From the IMG/VR virus record IMGVR_UViG_3300021057_000021, positions 1-40,298 of that record: a DNA stretch of 40,298 bases; one strand, 5' to 3'. The DNA comes from a virus. The notes under the pieces are model-generated. The model did no database searches and was not told the origin of the DNA. It saw only the letters and a list, made by a program, of their open reading frames with translations. This document shows positions 2,728 to 39,004 of the stretch, in pieces. The position numbers and the translations under genes are program-made. Numbering within the stretch: position 1 is the stretch's first letter; each line of letters starts with the position of its first letter.

Positions 2728-3002
2728 TTGCTCACCTTGGCAGCGCGCTCGGCCCAGAGTTGATCCATGGCCGCGCTGAACTCGCGAACCCACTGCTGAC
2801 GGTACGCGGGCCCTGTCTGCGCGTACGACCCTCGCATGCTGGCCCACTCGTCCGCGCGCGTGGTCGCGATCCGCTCGGCCTGTGGCAGGAGTCGGTTACG
2901 CTCGTCGACGTAACCGCAATCGTGTTTGTCGGGACGGATCACCACGTGCGTCACCGGACACACGGCCTCCGTATGCTTGCACTTGCGAGCCGGGTACGGC
3001 AT
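2724..3002 (-). CDS. Hypothetical 92-residue protein with Cys/His N-terminus
   Basis: ATG 3002 overlaps the upstream TGA as TGATG. The first 35 residues carry C-K-H, C-P-V-T-H and H-D-C-G, compatible with one zinc site. The rest is a long charged helix (ERNRLLPQAERIATTRADEW) and an amphipathic tail FSAAMDQLWAERAAKVSK. No family recognised. Confidence 0.7.
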   Translation of the reverse strand: MPYPARKCKHTEAVCPVTHVVIRPDKHDCGYVDERNRLLPQAERIATTRADEWASMRGSYAQTGPAYRQQWVREFSAAMDQLWAERAAKVSK

Positions 3003-3502
3003 CAGAAACCCGCTTCCTTGAGGCACTCGCGCACTCCCTCGCGGACAATCTCGCGCACCTTGTCGAGGGGGACGCTCGCATCCTTGACAGACTGGGTAAC
3101 CACGTCGCGGATCACCTGGAGGAGCACATCACTCGCGCTGGTGTCCGGCGGTGGTACCTCGTGCGGTGACTCCGAGTCCCGCGCGCGCTCGCGCACGGCG
3201 TTAGCGATGCTCGCGGCGTAGCTCTGGGCCCCGTTCGGTTTGGCGCGCACGTCCCGCTGTCCGTTGATCCGCGCCTGGAGTACCGCCCTGCGCTCACCCA
3301 GCCCGGCCATCGCCTCGCGCACGTCAGCGCGGTGTACCCACAGGAAGCGCCCGAGATACTCCGAGCGCACCCGCTTGGACCGCACCCAGCCCTGCAGGGT
3401 CGCATGGTGCAGCCCGAACTCCGCCTCGATCCCGTGCGCGGGCGCGAACCCGAGGCTCACTAGCTCGGATCGCATGCGCGCAGTCAGTTCCGTGTCTCCC
3501 AT
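3002..3502 (-). CDS. DNA-binding protein with MerR/excisionase-like HTH
   Basis: 166 residues from ATG 3502, preceded by AGAAAGG at 8-base spacing. Residues about 24-62 look like a winged or MerR-type HTH that reads a start context: EAEFGLHHATLQGWVRSKRV, then LGRFLWVHRADVREAM, the usual helix-turn-helix then strand pattern. The C-terminal 100 residues are a basic linker (QARINGQRDVRAKPNG) and two amphipathic helices (LLQVIRDVVTQSVKD; DKVREIVREGVRECLKEAG), suited to oligomerisation. It could be a regulator of the early arm or a replication accessory factor. Confidence 0.7.
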   Translation of the reverse strand: MGDTELTARMRSELVSLGFAPAHGIEAEFGLHHATLQGWVRSKRVRSEYLGRFLWVHRADVREAMAGLGERRAVLQARINGQRDVRAKPNGAQSYAASIANAVRERARDSESPHEVPPPDTSASDVLLQVIRDVVTQSVKDASVPLDKVREIVREGVRECLKEAGF

Positions 3503-3516
3503 GTCATGTGCCTTTC

Positions 3517-4260
3517 TCAGAACAAAGAAGGTTGATAGTCGCGCAAGATCACTTCGTCCCCGTTGATCCTGCGTCTCGCCAGTGCGGCGTATTCGGGACT
3601 CATCTCCCACCCGAGAAACGATCGACCGAGCGCCTTACACGCAACGCCCGTAGTACCCGACCCGCAGAACGGATCCAGAATGAGATCGTTCTCGTCGGTG
3701 AACAACCTGACTAGCTCGGTCATGAGCGGCAGCGGTTTCATCGTCGGGTGCGGGCTGCGCTCGGCATCGGGCTCGCGATGTCGCGTGTGCGAGAACACCC
3801 CGACCCGTCCGCCTCCGCTCCATTCCTTCCGCCCGGGCTGGTGTGCGACCACGATCGACTCGTACCCGACCCCGGGACGATCGCCCGAGTATTGCGGCTG
3901 CGCGTCAGGCTTGATCCACACCATGGTGCGGACGTAGTCCAGGCCCGCGCCCATGAGGCACGCACGCCAGAGGTGTACCGCCTCGACTTGGCAGAACACG
4001 AGAACCCACCGACGAGCGAGCCGGGCGAACTGCGTCGCACAGTCCAGGCGCAGGGACTCGGTCATGGGCTCGAACTCCAGCGGTGATTCCACCACGGTCA
4101 CCTGACCCGCATCGTCGTATAGCCTCCGACGCTGCATCCCGTGAGCCTCACCCTCAAAGGGTGGATCGGTGATCACGTGATCGACCGAGCGATCGGGCAG
4201 CGACGGCATACCCGTAACCGCGTCGACGCAGTCACCCTCGCGAACGCCCCACCTAGTCAC
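3517..4260 (-). CDS. Orphan DNA methyltransferase (beta-class, N4/N6)
   Basis: 247 residues. Motif IV DPPF at 32-35 comes before motif I DPFCGSGTT at 196-204, with HPTMKP at 171-176 between, the order of beta-class adenine-N6 or cytosine-N4 methyltransferases. The region between (about 36-170) is the target-recognition part. The AdoMet pocket would be formed by FCGSGTT and the following GWEMSPEYAALARRR. No restriction endonuclease is next to it, so the likely role is protecting phage DNA or regulation. DPPF does not by itself settle N6 versus N4. Confidence 0.92.
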   Translation of the reverse strand: MTRWGVREGDCVDAVTGMPSLPDRSVDHVITDPPFEGEAHGMQRRRLYDDAGQVTVVESPLEFEPMTESLRLDCATQFARLARRWVLVFCQVEAVHLWRACLMGAGLDYVRTMVWIKPDAQPQYSGDRPGVGYESIVVAHQPGRKEWSGGGRVGVFSHTRHREPDAERSPHPTMKPLPLMTELVRLFTDENDLILDPFCGSGTTGVACKALGRSFLGWEMSPEYAALARRRINGDEVILRDYQPSLF

Positions 4261-4682: not shown

Positions 4683-5321
4683 CTAATCGTCGTCGTCCGG
4701 TTGGCAGTAGACCCGCGGGCCCGGCGGAGGGAGCGCCTTGACCCGCTTCCGCACTTCGGCGGTCCAGGCCGCGGACATCCGCTCGCGCATCTCGGGCGTA
4801 GCGACGAGCGCGAACGCGGCCCGACGCTGATCGGCGAACCGCTGCAGCCCTCCGAGGATCGCCACGTCGATCGCGCGCTCATGCTCGTACGCCAGTGCAG
4901 CGAGCACACCGGCCATGACGTTGACGAGCCCGCGCATCGCACGCTCGTACTCCACCTCGGCGCGGATGTTCCTCGGGGTGTGGCCGACGGCCTGGCCGTT
5001 GCGGATGTGGTACCGCTGCGCCTCGGGATCGTTCGCGGCCCGCAGCGCGCTGCGGATGATCTGTCCACTGCACGACGTACACCGAGATTCCCCGGGCTTA
5101 ACCGGGCGCGCGCACGTGCTGCAGCCACCGACGAGCCGCGATCGAAACGTCCCGCTCGTCGACGACGTAAACGTCAGCGCGGGCGCGGCCGTCGTCGTCG
5201 AGGTCGCGACGGGGGCCATGGGGATCCTAAGAGTCTGCGTCTGACACACGTGCACGGCTGCGCCATCGTGCGCCGGGTACCACACCGCGCAGCGATCGCA
5301 CTTATAGTGAAACCTCACCAT
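4683..5321 (-). CDS. Zinc-ribbon protein with helical C-terminal domain
   Basis: 212 residues from ATG 5321. The N-terminus has CDRC (8-11). After a Ser/Thr/Pro-rich linker there is a second four-cysteine knuckle, CSTCARPVKPGESRCTSC, typical of a zinc ribbon. The C-terminal half is helical (ILGGLQRFADQRRAAFALV). The GHTPRNIRAEVEYERAMRG segment does not match a family I know. Overlaps the upstream gene by 7 bases. Function unknown, possibly nucleic-acid binding. Confidence 0.75.
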   Translation of the reverse strand: MVRFHYKCDRCAVWYPAHDGAAVHVCQTQTLRIPMAPVATSTTTAAPALTFTSSTSGTFRSRLVGGCSTCARPVKPGESRCTSCSGQIIRSALRAANDPEAQRYHIRNGQAVGHTPRNIRAEVEYERAMRGLVNVMAGVLAALAYEHERAIDVAILGGLQRFADQRRAAFALVATPEMRERMSAAWTAEVRKRVKALPPPGPRVYCQPDDDD

Positions 5322-5659
5322 CCGTGATCCCCTTTCTTGCCCTTAGCAGCCCGGGCTGACACTGGCACTCGCGGAGTCTGGCGTTGACGTGCGCAATCGG
5401 GACACCACATCACTTCGTGTTCAGACACTGAGGCTTCGCCGCGGGACCGGAGCACTTGGTTTGTCCGTTCGAGCCATGCCTCCGCCACCGCAGTAACAGG
5501 CACCATCGCGCCACAGTCTCTACAGGGCCACAGGTTGCACGTTGGCTGTCCCCCTACCCCGATAGCCCCCAGTCCCACAGCGTTGCTCCTGCGCGATTCT
5601 GGTGCATTTGGCGGGGTGTCTGGACTGCCACCCGCACTCCGAGGCTTCCGCGGGGTCAC
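5315..5659 (-). CDS. Zinc-finger-like protein, 114 residues
   Basis: ATG 5659 overlaps the upstream gene stop. The Pro/Ser/Arg-rich first 40 residues look disordered. Then LWPCRDCGAMVPV (CxxC) and MWCPDCARQR (CxxC), about 40 residues apart, form one treble-clef-type site. The C-terminus is basic (ARAAKGKKGDHGW). Likely a nucleic-acid or protein adaptor; function unknown. Confidence 0.75.
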   Translation of the reverse strand: MTPRKPRSAGGSPDTPPNAPESRRSNAVGLGAIGVGGQPTCNLWPCRDCGAMVPVTAVAEAWLERTNQVLRSRGEASVSEHEVMWCPDCARQRQTPRVPVSARAAKGKKGDHGW

Positions 5660-6018
5660 TTGGACACGTCCTCGTCTGTGCCAAATCGCTTGCGGTATTC
5701 AGTCCGCGCCGCGTCGAGGTAGCGCGAGATTGTCTCGGGCCCGTATAGGGTCTCAGGCCGCAGATACGGGAACATCTTCGCATCCGACTTCCACCCGAGG
5801 ACGACCGCGCAATACCAAGCCACCTTTCGCAGTTCCAACGCGCTCAGTCCCTCGTCGAGACGAGCGCAGATCAGACTGCAGTGCTTAAGCGTCCCCGAGT
5901 AACTCACACCGTTGTAGCGGCTGAGTGAGTGCAGCACAGGCATAGCCCTTTCTCGGCTAGCAGCGTCCGCTTTGACTTTCGCGCCCCGGCCCCGCTTGAG
6001 TTTCGTGTTCTCGGTCAT
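5656..6018 (-). CDS. Phage replication protein with Phg_2220_C-like domain
   Basis: 120 residues. Residues about 31-112 match my memory of the conserved C-terminal domain of phage replisome organisers (Phg_2220_C): LSRYNGVSYSGTLKHCSLI, then ARLDEGLSALELRKVAWY, W-K-S-D-A-K-M, and YLRPETLYGPETISRYL. Those proteins usually have an N-terminal winged helix; here only a short basic leader remains. The frame is open to an ATG at 6351, but that extension would translate the repeat region 6019-6289, so 6018 is preferred. ATG 5942, after AGAAAGGGCT, would start directly at the domain. It probably binds the adjacent repeats or loads the host helicase. Confidence 0.75.
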   Translation of the reverse strand: MTENTKLKRGRGAKVKADAASRERAMPVLHSLSRYNGVSYSGTLKHCSLICARLDEGLSALELRKVAWYCAVVLGWKSDAKMFPYLRPETLYGPETISRYLDAARTEYRKRFGTDEDVSK

Positions 6019-6116
6019 GGCTGCGAATCCGTCAAGTGGTCCGTTCGTTCGAATTTGGTCAGACCGACTGATCGATTGCGATGAAGGGTCCCCCATCCCA
6101 TGGGGGACTATAGGGG

Positions 6117-6160
6117 GTCTGAGATCTGGGATCTGAGATCTCAGATCTGAGATCTCAGAG
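6117..6160. repeat. Tandem AGATCT-centred palindromic repeats
   Basis: The unit CTGAGATCTCAG, itself a palindrome, occurs twice in direct tandem, with a partial third copy (TCTGAGATCTGGG) to the left. It lies in the candidate origin region and could be bound by a dimeric protein. Confidence 0.85.
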
Positions 6161-6180
6161 AGCACATTGCATGCCTGAGT

Positions 6181-6189
6181 TTGTCCACA
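6181..6189 (+). promoter_or_regulatory. DnaA box TTGTCCACA
   Basis: An exact match to the 9-base DnaA box preferred by high-GC bacteria such as Streptomyces and Mycobacterium (established knowledge), located among tandem repeats. A single box could occur by chance, so its weight comes from the context. Confidence 0.5.
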
Positions 6190-6289
6190 GGGCATTTGAT
6201 CGCTCTTTGCGCCTGTTGGCCTTATCGACCGGAGCAATTGATCGAGCAATTGATCGGTTGGTATGACCACTCCGCACCATGGGAGTGTG

Positions 6290-7324
6290 TCACTCGGCCC
6301 TTTCATCGATAGGCTCATTACACAGGGACTCCAGCCCTGCGCGCATGGCATCGAGGCTGATCCGCTCGGTCAGCTCCTTCCATGAGCCCGTGCCGAAGTG
6401 TCGCTCTAGCGCGATAGCCTTGCGCGTCTTGTCCGCTGCGCTCTGACCGGGCCAGCGCTTGACCATTTCATGCTGGATCCGCTCGGCAAGGATCTCGCGC
6501 TCGTCCCGCTCGGGGTTGCGGCCACCTTCGTTGACGTAGTGCCTGGTTTTCGTCGACGTATCCACCCCGGTGTGCCCGGCGGGATTGAGCAAGCGCACGT
6601 GCGGCTCGAAGTCAGCGAACGTCGGGCGCTTGAAACTGCGGCCGTTGATCAGGTCAAAGCGATCCTTGATCACGTGCGCGAGGATCTCGATCCCGTCGTC
6701 GTCGGACCGGTCCTTTTCCATTTCGACGACGAGGGAGGGCTCGAACCCAAACTCTCCCTCCACTTTCATCTTGATCCCCGTCTTGATCAGCTCGCGCTTG
6801 CCGCGTTCGTTCACCTCGAAGTCGTATTCGTATCCCGCGCGCCCGCACACGATGATGTGTAGCGGGGCGTTGAGGTACAACGCGGGCCACGCCGACCACT
6901 TGGCTTTGACTGCGGCCCAGTCCTGAAACTCTAGCTTCGTCGTCGGGGCGCGACCCTTGGCCCGTTGCGCCTCTTGCAGTGCGGCCAGGTAGCTGCGCTG
7001 CACTTCCTCCCATACGTGAGAGATCGAGTCGACGATCAGCACGGACACACCGGCCGCGATCGCCTCTTGCGTTACCGCGAGCAGGTCAGCGAGCGCGCGT
7101 GTCTTGCTCACGAGGAGCGGCTGACCCGTGCGTTCCTTGACCCGGCCTTTCCAGAAATCCGATCCGGTCTCGGTGTCGAACATCGCGATCGGACCGGTGA
7201 GCTTGAAGTGCTCGCGCGTACCGATCGCTAGCTCAATCGCGGTGTGTGTCTTGCCTGAGCCTGCGAACCCTAGAAATCCTGCTTTGAGGTATCCCGCGTC
7301 CGAGGCGGGTGCGAGGAGTGACAC
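6290..7324 (-). CDS. RecA-like P-loop ATPase (Sak4-type recombination protein)
   Basis: 344 residues from GTG 7324, with GGAGGT 10 bases upstream. Walker A G-F-A-G-S-G-K-T at 19-26 and Walker B VLIVDS at 95-100 place it in the phage nucleotide-binding AAA/RecA core group that includes Sak4 single-strand annealing proteins. The domain runs to about residue 240 (HIIVCGRAGYEYDFEVNE). The C-terminus is a helical tail with YVNEGGRNPERDEREILAER. Role: recombination or replication restart with RusA. A longer frame to 7429 is a shadow of the overlapping small membrane gene. Confidence 0.85.
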   Translation of the reverse strand: MSLLAPASDAGYLKAGFLGFAGSGKTHTAIELAIGTREHFKLTGPIAMFDTETGSDFWKGRVKERTGQPLLVSKTRALADLLAVTQEAIAAGVSVLIVDSISHVWEEVQRSYLAALQEAQRAKGRAPTTKLEFQDWAAVKAKWSAWPALYLNAPLHIIVCGRAGYEYDFEVNERGKRELIKTGIKMKVEGEFGFEPSLVVEMEKDRSDDDGIEILAHVIKDRFDLINGRSFKRPTFADFEPHVRLLNPAGHTGVDTSTKTRHYVNEGGRNPERDEREILAERIQHEMVKRWPGQSAADKTRKAIALERHFGTGSWKELTERISLDAMRAGLESLCNEPIDERAE

Positions 7325-7443
7325 GGCGGAGGTAACCTCCGCTCGATGCGCGTGAGCGAGAACGCTCCGACGACGGCAGGCAAGAGCGCGAGGCCTCCGA
7401 TCAGGAGACCCACGACGAGCCCATACCATTCGTCAGCAGTCAC
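7270..7443 (-). CDS. Small membrane protein overlapping the ATPase start
   Basis: 57 residues. The GTG at 7443-7441 forms a GTGA overlap with the repressor stop. Residues 8-30 (GLVVGLLIGGLALLPAVVGAF) are one transmembrane helix, followed by TRIERRLPPP and a polar tail. The last 55 bases overlap the ATPase gene in a different frame. Placement directly after the repressor suggests a lysogeny- or exclusion-related membrane peptide. Function unknown. Confidence 0.65.
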   Translation of the reverse strand: MTADEWYGLVVGLLIGGLALLPAVVGAFSLTRIERRLPPPCHSSHPPRTRDTSKQDF

Positions 7444-7640
7444 GCGACACCGAGCAAGTAAGAGACAGTGGTATCGAGGGCACGGGCAATGCGCGATAGC
7501 CGCGACGCGCGCGGCATGGTGCGCCCCGTTTCCCAGTCAGCCACAGTGCACCCGCGGACGCCGACGCGCGCGGCCAGGTCTGACTGGCGCCAGCCTTTCC
7601 GCTTGCGCCGCATTGCGATCCGTCGAGCCGTTACGTTCAT
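7440..7640 (-). CDS. Small Cro/CI-type XRE repressor
   Basis: 66 residues from ATG 7640, all one helix-turn-helix domain. N-V-T-A-R-R-I-A-M-R-R-K-R is helix 1, WRQSDLAARVGVRGCTVADW the recognition HTH, then ETGRTMPRASRLSRIARALD and the closing VSYLLGVA. It lacks the C-terminal dimerisation/cleavage domain of lambda CI, so it is Cro-like or needs a partner. No Shine-Dalgarno precedes the ATG; a TTGACG lies about 30 bases upstream and operator copy 2 is only 9 bases away, consistent with a leaderless, autoregulated transcript. It is the leading candidate reader of the dispersed operators. The longer frame to 7736 is unlikely. Confidence 0.85.
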   Translation of the reverse strand: MNVTARRIAMRRKRKGWRQSDLAARVGVRGCTVADWETGRTMPRASRLSRIARALDTTVSYLLGVA

Positions 7641-7648
7641 GGTACGCG

Positions 7649-7665
7649 TTTGGGGTTGTCCCAAA
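7649..7665. promoter_or_regulatory. Operator-like inverted repeat, copy 2
   Basis: TTTGGG-GTTGT-CCCAAA, a perfect 6+6 inverted repeat with a 5-base spacer. It is 9 bases upstream of the repressor ATG and just downstream of a leftward TTGACG, well placed for autoregulation. Confidence 0.8.
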
Positions 7666-7747
7666 AATCCGTCAAGCGAATCGCGCGACGTCGAGCGGAA
7701 CCGCGCGAGGTCATGCACGAACTTCCGAGTGGTCACGTGGCGCGCGC

Positions 7748-7762: not shown

Positions 7763-7918
7763 ATGCTGTGGGACAAACGGTGCACATCCGGATCGCCGGC
7801 CGCGGAGCCTAGCAGAAAACGCCGTCCGGAGCGGGGTTCGTGTCGCGGGCTTGTGAGTTTCTCGACGACGAACCCTTGCCAGTGAGCCCGGTCCTGTGGC
7901 TATAGGGTGGACCACATT

Positions 7919-7935
7919 TGTGGGACAGACCCAAA
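7919..7935. promoter_or_regulatory. Operator-like inverted repeat, copy 4
   Basis: TGTGGG-ACAGA-CCCAAA; one half differs at one position. It lies just downstream of a candidate rightward -10 (TATAGG at 7901), so binding would block transcription of the 7991 operon. Confidence 0.65.
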
Positions 7936-7990: not shown

Positions 7991-8548
7991 ATGACCCAAA
8001 AGCAACGCGTCCCTAGGAAGAATCAGCGCAGCGTGTCTCAGCCCGGCCTGCTCTACGAGCGGATCGCATCGGCTATCCGTGCACAGTTAGACCCTGACGT
8101 GGTGGCCCAGATCGCGGAGCGCGTGGTGGCTGAGGCCGTCGAGGCGGAGTACCAGCAGGCTGCGCAACGGCTCGCGGCCATGCTCGGCGCTGCGCCCGCG
8201 CCTCCGCCCGCTCCTCGGCCCGCGCGTCGTGCGCCTCCGCAAGCGGCGAAGCCTCCGGCGAAGAAACCCAACGGAGCGAACCACGAGCGCAAACGCGCCG
8301 CACCGCGCCCGCGCGTGGACAAGATTCCGATCGGAGTCCAAGCGAAGCGCGCGCGCGATTTCCTGCGCAAGGGGCCCGCGACGGGGGTTGATATCATCGC
8401 GGCCGTGCGCCCGAAGGAAGCGATCGACCCTCGCAGGATCCCGGCCGTGTGGGCGCAATTGCGCGAGCGCGGGGGGCTGAAAGTCTCGGCGGCCGGATAT
8501 GACCGCGAGGGTCACGGCAAGCTGACTCTCTGGAAATTGGACGAGTAG
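7991..8548 (+). CDS. Basic two-domain protein, possibly winged-helix
   Basis: 185 residues. The N-terminal 60 residues are helical (LYERIASAIRAQLDPDVVAQ). Residues about 68-115 are a disordered Ala/Pro/Lys linker (APPPAPRPARRAPPQ). The C-terminal 70 residues (QAKRARDFLRKGPATGVDI, then PAVWAQLRERGGLKVSAAGY) look like a winged helix that ends in a strand, LTLWKLDE. It is the first gene of the rightward operon under operators 3 and 4. A DNA-binding role such as early regulator is inferred, not proven. Confidence 0.7.
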   Translation: MTQKQRVPRKNQRSVSQPGLLYERIASAIRAQLDPDVVAQIAERVVAEAVEAEYQQAAQRLAAMLGAAPAPPPAPRPARRAPPQAAKPPAKKPNGANHERKRAAPRPRVDKIPIGVQAKRARDFLRKGPATGVDIIAAVRPKEAIDPRRIPAVWAQLRERGGLKVSAAGYDREGHGKLTLWKLDE

Positions 8549-10135: not shown

Positions 10136-10317
10136 GCCCGAGCCTCGAACTCGTGGCGATTAAGGACGTCCCTACGCGGTTCCCGTGGTGGCCGTTCTCG
10201 GTCTGGACCACGTACAACCTGATCCAGCGCGGCAAGCTGCGCGCGGTGCGGGTCGGGCGCAGACGACTCCTAACGGAGGATCACCTGCGCGAATTCATCG
10301 CGCGGAACACGCGCTAG
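10132..10317 (+). CDS. Excisionase-like HTH protein (putative Xis)
   Basis: 61 residues. A compact MerR/excisionase HTH: L-V-A-I-K-D-V-P, WTTYNLIQRGKLRAVRVGRR, L-L-T-E-D-H-L-R-E-F-I, the usual helix, turn, strand and final helix. ATG 10132 overlaps the prior stop as ATGA. Its stop overlaps the convergent integrase stop (CTAG). Such proteins direct prophage excision by binding the attachment-site arms. Next to the integrase this is a strong functional guess. Confidence 0.8.
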   Translation: MSPSLELVAIKDVPTRFPWWPFSVWTTYNLIQRGKLRAVRVGRRRLLTEDHLREFIARNTR

Positions 10318-11438
10318 ACGGGCCGGAGGATTCGTCCGCGCGCATCACGCGCGCCCGCGATCGCGATGTTCAGCGGGGGGCGACGAGCGTCCGGGATGGT
10401 GAACTGCAGCCGACCATAGTCCTGAGTGAACACGTCCGGGGTATGGTGCGCGTACGTCGTTTCGGTCACCGTGACCGACGAGTGGCCCAGGATCTTGGAC
10501 AAGCGGAAGATGTCCCCTCCGTTCCGCACCCAGTGCGTCGCGAACGTGTGGCGGAGATCGTGAAACGTCAGATCCTTGTCTAGCTTCGCTGCGTCTCGCG
10601 CCTTGTAGAACGCGATCCGCACGCCGGCCTGCGCCCGAACTCCTCCGAGCGGTGAGGGGAACACGAGGAGCGCACCGTCCCGCTTGAGTGCGCGAGCGCG
10701 CAGCATCGGCAGCACGACATCCAAGATCGGAACGGTGCGCGGCTCACCCGTCTTAGTCGTCCCGTGCTTTCCGCGATGCACGTCGATTTCCCTGCGCTCT
10801 AGATCTACGTCGGCCCACTGCAGATGCAGAAGCTCATCGAACCGCATACCTGTTGCGAGCGCGAGCGCGATCAGATCGCGGTACTCCTCGGTGCATGCGG
10901 CCAGGAGCCGGGTCATTTCCTCGCGCGTGCGGATCCAGTTGTAGCGCTCCCTCGGGACCGCTACCGGGGTAATGCGTACGTACGGGCTCGATTCGAGCCA
11001 CCCGCTACTGACGAAGTGTGCCAGCGCGCACGCGAGGACGATCAGCCGCGTGTTCACGGTGCGCGGCTTTGCCGTGCGTGCCTGGCGATCGCGAAACGTG
11101 GTGATGTGCGCCCGTTTGATGTTCACGATCGGCGTGCCCCCGAACGCGGGGATCAAGTGACGCAGCGTGACCGAACGGAACGAGCGATAGGACCTGGACT
11201 CCGACTGCTCAAGGTGATCGATCCACGCGTGGGCCGCTTCCGCGAACGTGCGATCGAGGCTCATCTCCGCGGGCAACTCACCCGCGCGGATCTTCCGCGC
11301 TGTAACCATGGCCTCTTGCTCGGCAGCGATGGCTGCTTTCTCCGAGCCGTACGCCCCGACGTAGTCTTTATCGGTCCCGGTCCTCGGGATGTAGACGTAG
11401 TAACGCGTCCCGCTCTTGCTCTTGCTCTTCCGGATCAT
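10314..11438 (-). CDS. int: Tyrosine-type site-specific integrase
   Basis: 374 residues. The catalytic set is R199 in TGMRFDELLHLQW, K229, H293-x2-R296 in HDLRHTFATHW, G318-H319 and Y329 in TTYAHH, all present, so it should be active. The N-terminal part (residues 60-160) is the core-binding SAM-like domain and residues 1-60 are a basic arm-type binding region with a KSKSKSGTRYYVYI start. Start 11438 is used: GGAAAGG is 11 bases upstream, though GGAGG directly abuts the ATG, and an operator copy (11458) lies between it and a candidate promoter. ATG 11486 is the alternative and would place the operator within the gene. Confidence 0.93.
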   Translation of the reverse strand: MIRKSKSKSGTRYYVYIPRTGTDKDYVGAYGSEKAAIAAEQEAMVTARKIRAGELPAEMSLDRTFAEAAHAWIDHLEQSESRSYRSFRSVTLRHLIPAFGGTPIVNIKRAHITTFRDRQARTAKPRTVNTRLIVLACALAHFVSSGWLESSPYVRITPVAVPRERYNWIRTREEMTRLLAACTEEYRDLIALALATGMRFDELLHLQWADVDLERREIDVHRGKHGTTKTGEPRTVPILDVVLPMLRARALKRDGALLVFPSPLGGVRAQAGVRIAFYKARDAAKLDKDLTFHDLRHTFATHWVRNGGDIFRLSKILGHSSVTVTETTYAHHTPDVFTQDYGRLQFTIPDARRPPLNIAIAGARDARGRILRPV

Positions 11439-11457
11439 CCTCCGTGCTGCCTTTCCG

Positions 11458-11474
11458 CCTGGGCCTTTCCCAAG
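11458..11474. promoter_or_regulatory. Operator-like inverted repeat, copy 5
   Basis: CCTGGG-CCTTT-CCCAAG. Central GGG-N5-CCC matches the family with one flank changed. It lies 20 bases upstream of the preferred integrase start and downstream of a -10-like TATGCT (leftward), so it could repress int. Confidence 0.55.
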
Positions 11475-11486
11475 CGCAGCGAGCAT

Positions 11487-11680
11487 ACACCCGTCAGGAC
11501 AACGTCAGGACAAACCGATCGTAAGTATTTATGATCATTCGACGATATTTGTTCTGGGACAATGTTTCCGTATCCATCTCGCGCACTTAGCACCATGGTC
11601 TAACCCAAGCGACTCCACGCGCTCCGACGAGAACGCAGACCGCCACAAAGCACGACGGGACAACGTCAGGACAACGGCCG
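11487..11680. other. Candidate attP with arm-type repeats
   Basis: GTCAGGACAA occurs three times: two head-to-tail copies 12 bases apart starting near 11493, and a third near 11668. Related GGGACAA lies near 11556 and 11655. Between them a distinctly AT-rich stretch (about 11521-11555, with TAAGTATTTATGATCATT) stands out in the GC-rich genome and is the best core candidate. Repeats flanking an AT-rich core beside int are typical of attP. The exact core cannot be placed without the host attB. Confidence 0.6.
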
Positions 11681-35117: not shown

Positions 35118-35305
35118 CGCGGCTGCGGCAGTGGGCTCCACGGGCTCCGCGTCAGCGCGAGGCACGCGGCGCACGTGGACTCCGCGCGGATCCAGGTGAA
35201 GCGATCTAGGCGCGACCGTGGCCGCTTGGTTACCGTCGAGCACACGTGCTTTCCCCACGTGGCGCGATCCTTCGGGTGCACGAGCAGATGAACCGTCAGA
35301 GCCAT
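35114..35305 (-). CDS. Small CAAC zinc-knuckle protein
   Basis: 63 residues from ATG 35305. CSTV and later C-A-A-C-L give two Cys pairs, with basic sequence between (KRPRSRLDRFTWIRAESTCA). A tiny treble-clef-type DNA- or RNA-binding protein is likely. It shares the CTAG stop with the convergent 34431 gene. Confidence 0.65.
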   Translation of the reverse strand: MALTVHLLVHPKDRATWGKHVCSTVTKRPRSRLDRFTWIRAESTCAACLALTRSPWSPLPQPR

Positions 35306-35315
35306 AGAGCCATAG

Positions 35316-35388
35316 AGCCCATGCCCGGACTCGAACCGGGGACCCACGATTTACGAAACCGTAGCTCTGGCCACTGAGCTACATGGGC
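35316..35388 (-). tRNA. tRNA-Thr (CGT)
   Basis: Acceptor GCCCATG/CATGGGC is perfect. Anticodon stem ACGGT/ATCGT with loop TTCGTAA gives CGT. T-arm CCCGG-TTCGAGT-CCGGG is perfect. CCA not encoded. Confidence 0.92.
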
Positions 35389-38606: not shown

Positions 38607-39004
38607 TAGAGATCCTCCGTGGTGATTGGGATAACCGGTTGCTCGTCGGAGCCCGTCGGTCCCGCGGTGAGCGAGCGAACTCCGAGATAGGTCTGTAGCG
38701 CTCGGCGGATTATCTCAGAGACACCCGTACCGAGGTTCGACGCGTGACGGATTATCGCCTCGTGCTCCGCGCTGGTGACTCGGACTTTGAGAGCGTACTC
38801 CTTCGTAATTCGGCGAGGCTTCGCGGAATCGCTCCACGAGAACGAGCCTTCGCCGTGGTCCGCGGACGCGTGCTCCCCGGCGTGGCCGTCACGGAACACG
38901 CACGGACCATGGATCCGATGCGAGGCGAGACAGCGCGGCCCCTTGCTCTTGCTCTTCGACGTCGACGGATCCTTGCTCTTGCTCTTGCTCTTGCCCTTGC
39001 TCAT
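38606..39004 (-). CDS. Lys/Ser-rich protein with ribbon-helix-helix domain
   Basis: 132 residues. N-terminal low-complexity KGKSKSKSKD...SKSKSKG tract is followed by C-L-A-S-H, C-V-F-R-D-G-H-A-G-E-H (a possible zinc site), then a ribbon-helix-helix DNA-binding domain (about 70-112, YALKVRVTSAEHEAIIRH, EIIRRALQTYLG). It could be an autoregulated transcription factor. The start region shares the leader with 40119 (GGAGCAACGCGAC). Confidence 0.7.
   Translation of the reverse strand: MSKGKSKSKSKDPSTSKSKSKGPRCLASHRIHGPCVFRDGHAGEHASADHGEGSFSWSDSAKPRRITKEYALKVRVTSAEHEAIIRHASNLGTGVSEIIRRALQTYLGVRSLTAGPTGSDEQPVIPITTEDL

Follow-up and report, generated by a model that had tools for sequence, protein, structure and literature searches.

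The virus contig IMGVR_UViG_3300021057_000021, analyzed here over its full length of 40,298 bases (referred to as the window), looks like a temperate phage by gene content, encoding a tyrosine integrase (10314-11486) and an HTH repressor (7440-7736). Its segment 6019-6289 raises the question of whether replication of the phage starts between two replication-related genes, as proposed in a preliminary description of this DNA. We give a probability of about 0.72 to the reading that this segment is the replication origin of the phage and of the lambda type. Support for it comes from the position of the segment, its tandem repeats, its low helix stability and a comparison with 79 relatives. As an origin it would probably be unusual, since it lies outside a coding region and beside a stand-alone C-terminal domain of an initiator.

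Repeats and helix stability of the intergenic segment

Segment 6019-6289 separates the gene of an AAA_24 (Sak4-like) ATPase from a Phg_2220_C gene. The AGATCT repeats, the tandem pair of 12-mers and the exact TTGTCCACA box reported in the preliminary description were all found in it at the places given. Six tandem 7-mers of the AGATCTC/AGATCTG/AGATCCC type, with five GATC sites, occupy 6118-6159 on the minus strand; read on the plus strand they are TCTGAGA, TCTGGGA, TCTGAGA, TCTCAGA, TCTGAGA and TCTCAGA, and a perfect 28-bp palindrome at 6132-6159 forms part of the array. No other tandem repeat in the window scores as high (TRF 70). The array has a tandem score of 23, whereas 500 dinucleotide-shuffled versions of the segment reached 11 at most and other sampled 271-bp windows 20; outside it, no copy with up to three mismatches was detected. 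Two perfect tandem 12-mers, GATCAATTGCTC, are present at 6232-6255 and a degenerate third copy, GATCAAATGCCC, with two mismatches, at 6190-6201, all on the minus strand.

In a nearest-neighbor scan of the record, 6106-6255 ranked first as the 150 bp of lowest helix stability, which makes it a candidate unwinding region; for stretches of 271 bp, the minimum begins at 6051. GC content drops from about 0.63 to about 0.5 in the segment. The window's best tandem array and its stability minimum fall together in this one non-coding segment, and no other place in the window joins strong repeats with low helix stability. Nine GATC sites were counted in 6019-6289, a high density, but one that is matched elsewhere in the window. 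A perfect hairpin, GTCCCCCAT-CCC-ATGGGGGAC, was recognized from the sequence and by DNA folding at 6088-6108, between the 7-mers and the C-domain gene; it has a 9-bp stem and is not followed by a T-run. A search of Rfam gave no match at gathering scores.

An open frame belonging to a 231-aa ORF runs through 6019-6289. Its codon log-likelihood here is -0.37 per codon, compared with a minimum of -0.144 among 162 real coding segments, and the segment is thus considered non-coding despite the open frame. A read-through or frame-shifted N-domain across 6019-6351 was ruled out by codon statistics, six-frame reading and tblastn. A GC-skew inflection anticipated at about 6150 is absent; the skew tracks the coding strand, and its sign flips at around 7.7-8 kb together with the switch in gene direction.

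Palindromic repeats upstream of a gene start may also be sites of a transcription regulator acting on the downstream minus-strand genes, with no origin involved. Apart from 6019-6289 the minus-strand operon has no gap in this part, and the phage does encode an HTH repressor, yet we find this explanation rather unlikely. A promoter and terminator scan returned nothing, with no sigma-70-like promoter in 5600-6500, although host promoters may not follow the sigma-70 pattern. The motifs are also unlike the TTTGTCCCAC-type half-sites found close to the repressor, in agreement with the earlier view that these iterons are unrelated to the operator family, and they do not recur elsewhere. Regulator sites would further leave unexplained the extreme instability of the segment and the occurrence of repeats within coding linkers of most relatives, as described below.

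The 120-aa Phg_2220_C protein

The gene at 5656-6018 (minus strand) encodes a stand-alone Phg_2220_C protein of 120 aa, equivalent to the C-terminal domain of phage initiators. Its membership in PF09524 is indicated by a match with an E-value of 1.5e-6 and 28.6 bits (cut-off 27), and it also matches phrog_22793 (4e-10) and phrog_428, a 'replication initiation protein' (9e-6). The protein retains the invariant residues of the family (W76, YLRP, T90, L91 and Y100) and its gene shows positive coding statistics. Its product is probably a replication protein that recruits helicase.

Proteins of cultured phages that contain the Phg_2220_C domain are 229-353 aa long and have it in their C-terminal part, and in 78 of the 79 relatives an open frame of at least 80 aa (median 162 aa) precedes the domain match. 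The protein of the window has no such N-terminal part and is therefore not the C-terminal part of a longer initiator. A tblastn search of the window with eight N-domains gave no homolog (best E 0.08). Searching viral and genome contigs with the single 120-aa sequence brought up no close relative, and no relative sharing the arrangement of a stand-alone C-domain with non-coding repeats was found.

The preliminary description had named this protein as the most likely binder of the repeats, an assignment that our results do not favor. Only the C-domain is present, the N-terminal part seen in relatives is missing, and the predicted model is entirely helical (pLDDT 88), while fold and sequence searches of the PDB with the C-domain returned no relative. 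Nothing in these results marks the C-domain as a sequence-specific binder. A model of the full-length relative L185 (pLDDT 59) was too poor for use.

The absence of the N-part, along with a 12-mer family of only two good copies, could also indicate a degenerate remnant, in which the N-domain was lost, the origin was broken or moved elsewhere and the repeats are a relic. We regard this as quite unlikely: 7-mers and 12-mers alike are preserved as near-perfect copies, both the invariant residues and the positive coding statistics of the C-domain gene are retained, and the coincidence of strong repeats with low stability is unique within the window.

Domain-start repeats in relatives

The 79 non-redundant loci are profile-search matches in viral contigs and cultured phages, deduplicated by shared DNA words. 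In these relatives the place equivalent to 6019-6289 would be the linker between the N-terminal part of the initiator and its C-terminal Phg_2220_C domain, and we examined it in windows of 430 bp that extend 30 bp past the start of the domain match, accepting tandem repeats with a TRF score of at least 40. Repeats were present in 69 of the 79 domain-start windows and in 143 of 1307 other windows (11%), with p ~5e-50, a value that overstates independence because the loci partly share descent. Coverage by repeats rises from a baseline of about 1% to a maximum of 38% between -150 and -50. Domain-start stretches also tend to be easily melted, with 38 of 79 holding DNA of the least stable 1% of their locus compared with 11% of random windows. 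Coding across this place in relatives had been set out beforehand as an observation that would speak against an origin. The relatives do code there, but their origin-like repeats lie inside the gene, so that the coding does not refute an origin.

Two close relatives, L022 and L023, have AGATC pairs (AGATCTGAAGATCT and AGATCCAGATC) ahead of the C-domain. The reading frame of the pairs differs between them, suggesting a constraint at the level of DNA rather than protein. In L184, the relative ranked best by E-value, the repeats contain TCCGGA instead, showing that the repeat sequence itself is not conserved. Periods not divisible by three were seen in 26 of 69 domain-start windows and 57 of 143 other windows with repeats, a measure that does not separate coding from origin repeats. 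Coding repeats of low complexity may also occur in such linkers for reasons apart from replication.

Heptamer arrays in other initiator genes

A gene-blind scan for four tandem AGATCNN units returned 33 contigs, about 27 of them independent. In seven of these (L117, L126, L127, L131, L136, L138 and L140), which represent unrelated phages, the array lies inside a replication-initiation or DUF1376/primosomal gene, at residues 131-198, directly behind the N-domain. For random ORFs drawn from the same contigs, the 25 listed families (of 114) included no initiator family. When AGTACNN was scanned as a control, several initiator genes were matched too, which rules out a specificity for GATC; the association is with palindrome-cored 7-mer arrays and not with GATC in particular. 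Such AGATCNN and AGTACNN arrays in initiator genes are possibly a general origin mark in phages.

Arrays were also seen in the middle of genes that belong to no known family. A 413-aa protein at L119:8256-9497 contains five AGATCCC units mid-protein and may represent an undescribed initiator family. Family-less ORFs at L133:6779-7852 (357 aa) and L132:3737-4732 (331 aa) have AGATC arrays mid-gene and are candidate initiators.

The candidate DnaA box

The exact TTGTCCACA at 6181-6189 (plus strand) is a candidate DnaA box of doubtful function. It is the only exact copy in the window and lies 21 bp from the 7-mer array. Matches with up to one mismatch occur at chance level in the window (5 seen, 4.9 expected), so the box alone says little. 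The preliminary description was correct in reporting an exact copy, while its role as an origin element finds no support among relatives: a TT(A/G)TCCACA box is present in the equivalent region of 0 of 79. The cluster of boxes typical of oriC is absent as well, the exact box being single.

The box could have another source. Its sequence is similar to the TTTGTCCCACA half-sites close to the repressor, and that of TTTGTCCACA at 6180 to the TTTGTCCCAC-type half-sites, so that what reads as a DnaA box could instead be an operator half-site in degenerate form. Half-sites of the TTTGTCCCAC type are located at 7656-7666, 7766-7777 and 7918-7929 in the repressor region and at 11552-11563 past the integrase.

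These observations bear on the possibility of an origin of the oriC or plasmid kind, opened by host DnaA bound at 6181 together with AGATCT unwinding repeats, where the C-domain would only recruit helicase. AGATCT recurs in the 13-mers of E. coli oriC, and P1 oriR has AGATCCA heptamers with a DnaA box nearby. GATC-bearing 12-mers together with a DnaA box are found in V. cholerae oriII (PMC2865523). The window resembles oriII and oriR in having short GATC-containing repeats with a DnaA box close by, but differs from them in lacking an RctB or RepA initiator. Dam-regulated origins of this kind require methylation of their GATC-bearing repeats. GATC is present in the tandem repeats here, but the GTAC-cored control also marks initiator genes and GATC itself may not matter. 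An origin driven by DnaA is unlikely in our estimate: the box is single, near-matches are no commoner than chance, relatives lack it, and it resembles repressor half-sites.

Possible mechanism and comparison with known systems

For the lambda-type reading, we infer origin activity and the following order of events. A sequence-specific protein would bind the 12-mers, the 7-mers or both, and the helix would open in the adjacent unstable segment at about 6106-6255. The Phg_2220_C protein would then help to load the replicative helicase, and the neighboring Sak4-like ATPase may act later, in recombination-dependent replication. An ancestor presumably had the N-part; its loss would have left the repeats in non-coding DNA before the C-domain gene. 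The repeats may be read by host DnaA through its single box, by the 120-aa protein through its basic N-terminal tail, or by another phage protein such as those encoded at 3002-3610 and 7991-8548, for which no Pfam matches were obtained. The locus could also be a split or hybrid origin that dropped the sequence-reading half of the initiator and kept the C-domain as a helicase recruiter, with the reading left to a host protein (e.g., DnaA at 6181) or a separate phage protein; we hold this specific arrangement to be improbable.

Repeats inside the initiator gene are known from lambda O, P22 18 and phage L 18 (PMC8022706) and from SPP1 38 and 80alpha ORF20 (PMC5499656). The window shares with these systems repeats at the initiator locus, here 7-mers and 12-mers directly upstream of the Phg_2220_C gene, adjacent meltable DNA, here starting at 6106, and recombination genes beside them. 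Unlike in lambda-type phages, the repeats are not in the initiator coding sequence, a difference that concerns location only, and the N-terminal part of the initiator is missing. The tblastn search with eight N-domains detected no DNA-binding N-domain that would read the repeats in the window; a diverged or unrelated binder may exist. In Francisella phage KIRK, an origin was predicted in the Phg_2220_C gene (PMC7924643). KIRK has the same C-terminal family and iterons predicted at the gene, but its protein is a two-part protein of 240 aa with an AT-rich origin inside the gene, whereas the window has a 120-aa C-domain only.

If the lambda-type reading is right, it would provide a positional rule for Phg_2220_C phages, with the origin located at the tandem repeats just before that domain. 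The phage would also be a natural case of separated origin and initiator halves, useful for testing which half reads the origin and which brings the helicase.

Gene neighborhood and further observations

The minus-strand early genes include RusA (1470-1997) and an N6/N4 DNA methylase (3517-4260). The RecA-fold ATPase gene upstream of the repeats (6290-7429, minus strand) belongs to Sak4/AAA_24 by its match to PF13479 (6.2e-9, 36.4 bits, gathering cut-off 27) and matches phrog_1366 (2.7e-44); PF13479 serves as the Sak4 family in PMC8093625. The true start of this gene is probably near 7312-7318. Relatives of the ATPase are 47-52% identical, and the only DNA similarity to cultured phages is a match of 95 bases within this gene.

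Since the repeats lie between an ATPase gene and the gene of a small basic-tailed protein, a partition (centromere) site with its cognate ATPase and small binding protein comes to mind. Plasmid partition loci show the same layout of ATPase gene, tandem repeats and small protein gene. Such a site is very improbable here, as the ATPase is AAA_24/Sak4-like and not ParA, the phage has an integrase and the small protein is a member of a replication family.

Relatives of the ATPase offered little guidance on the downstream segment, most of them being without Phg_2220_C. Both were found only in L113, a contig from a Candidatus Cloacimonadota assembly, which encodes, at 540-1484 and 5221-6141, AAA_24 and a full-length Phg_2220_C initiator with AT-rich linker repeats. 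On the other side of the C-domain gene, a small protein with CxxC pairs (5315-5659, minus strand) has a homolog (BLASTP E 1e-10, 45% over 47 aa) that adjoins the full-length Phg_2220_C gene in L187/L023. The adjacency of Phg_2220_C and the CxxC protein in L187 and the co-occurrence of AAA_24 and Phg_2220_C on L113 support a real replication module.

Several other features of the window were recorded. The second most unstable stretch of the record, 11465-11620, is just past the integrase start and is a candidate attP region. Two further tandem repeats are CTTGCT (5.2 copies) and AGAGCCAT (2.8 copies), at 38972-39002 and 35298-35319. GATC occurs 492 times in the whole window, twice the first-order expectation of 248 and above the second-order expectation of 409, in a phage that has its own N6/N4 methylase.
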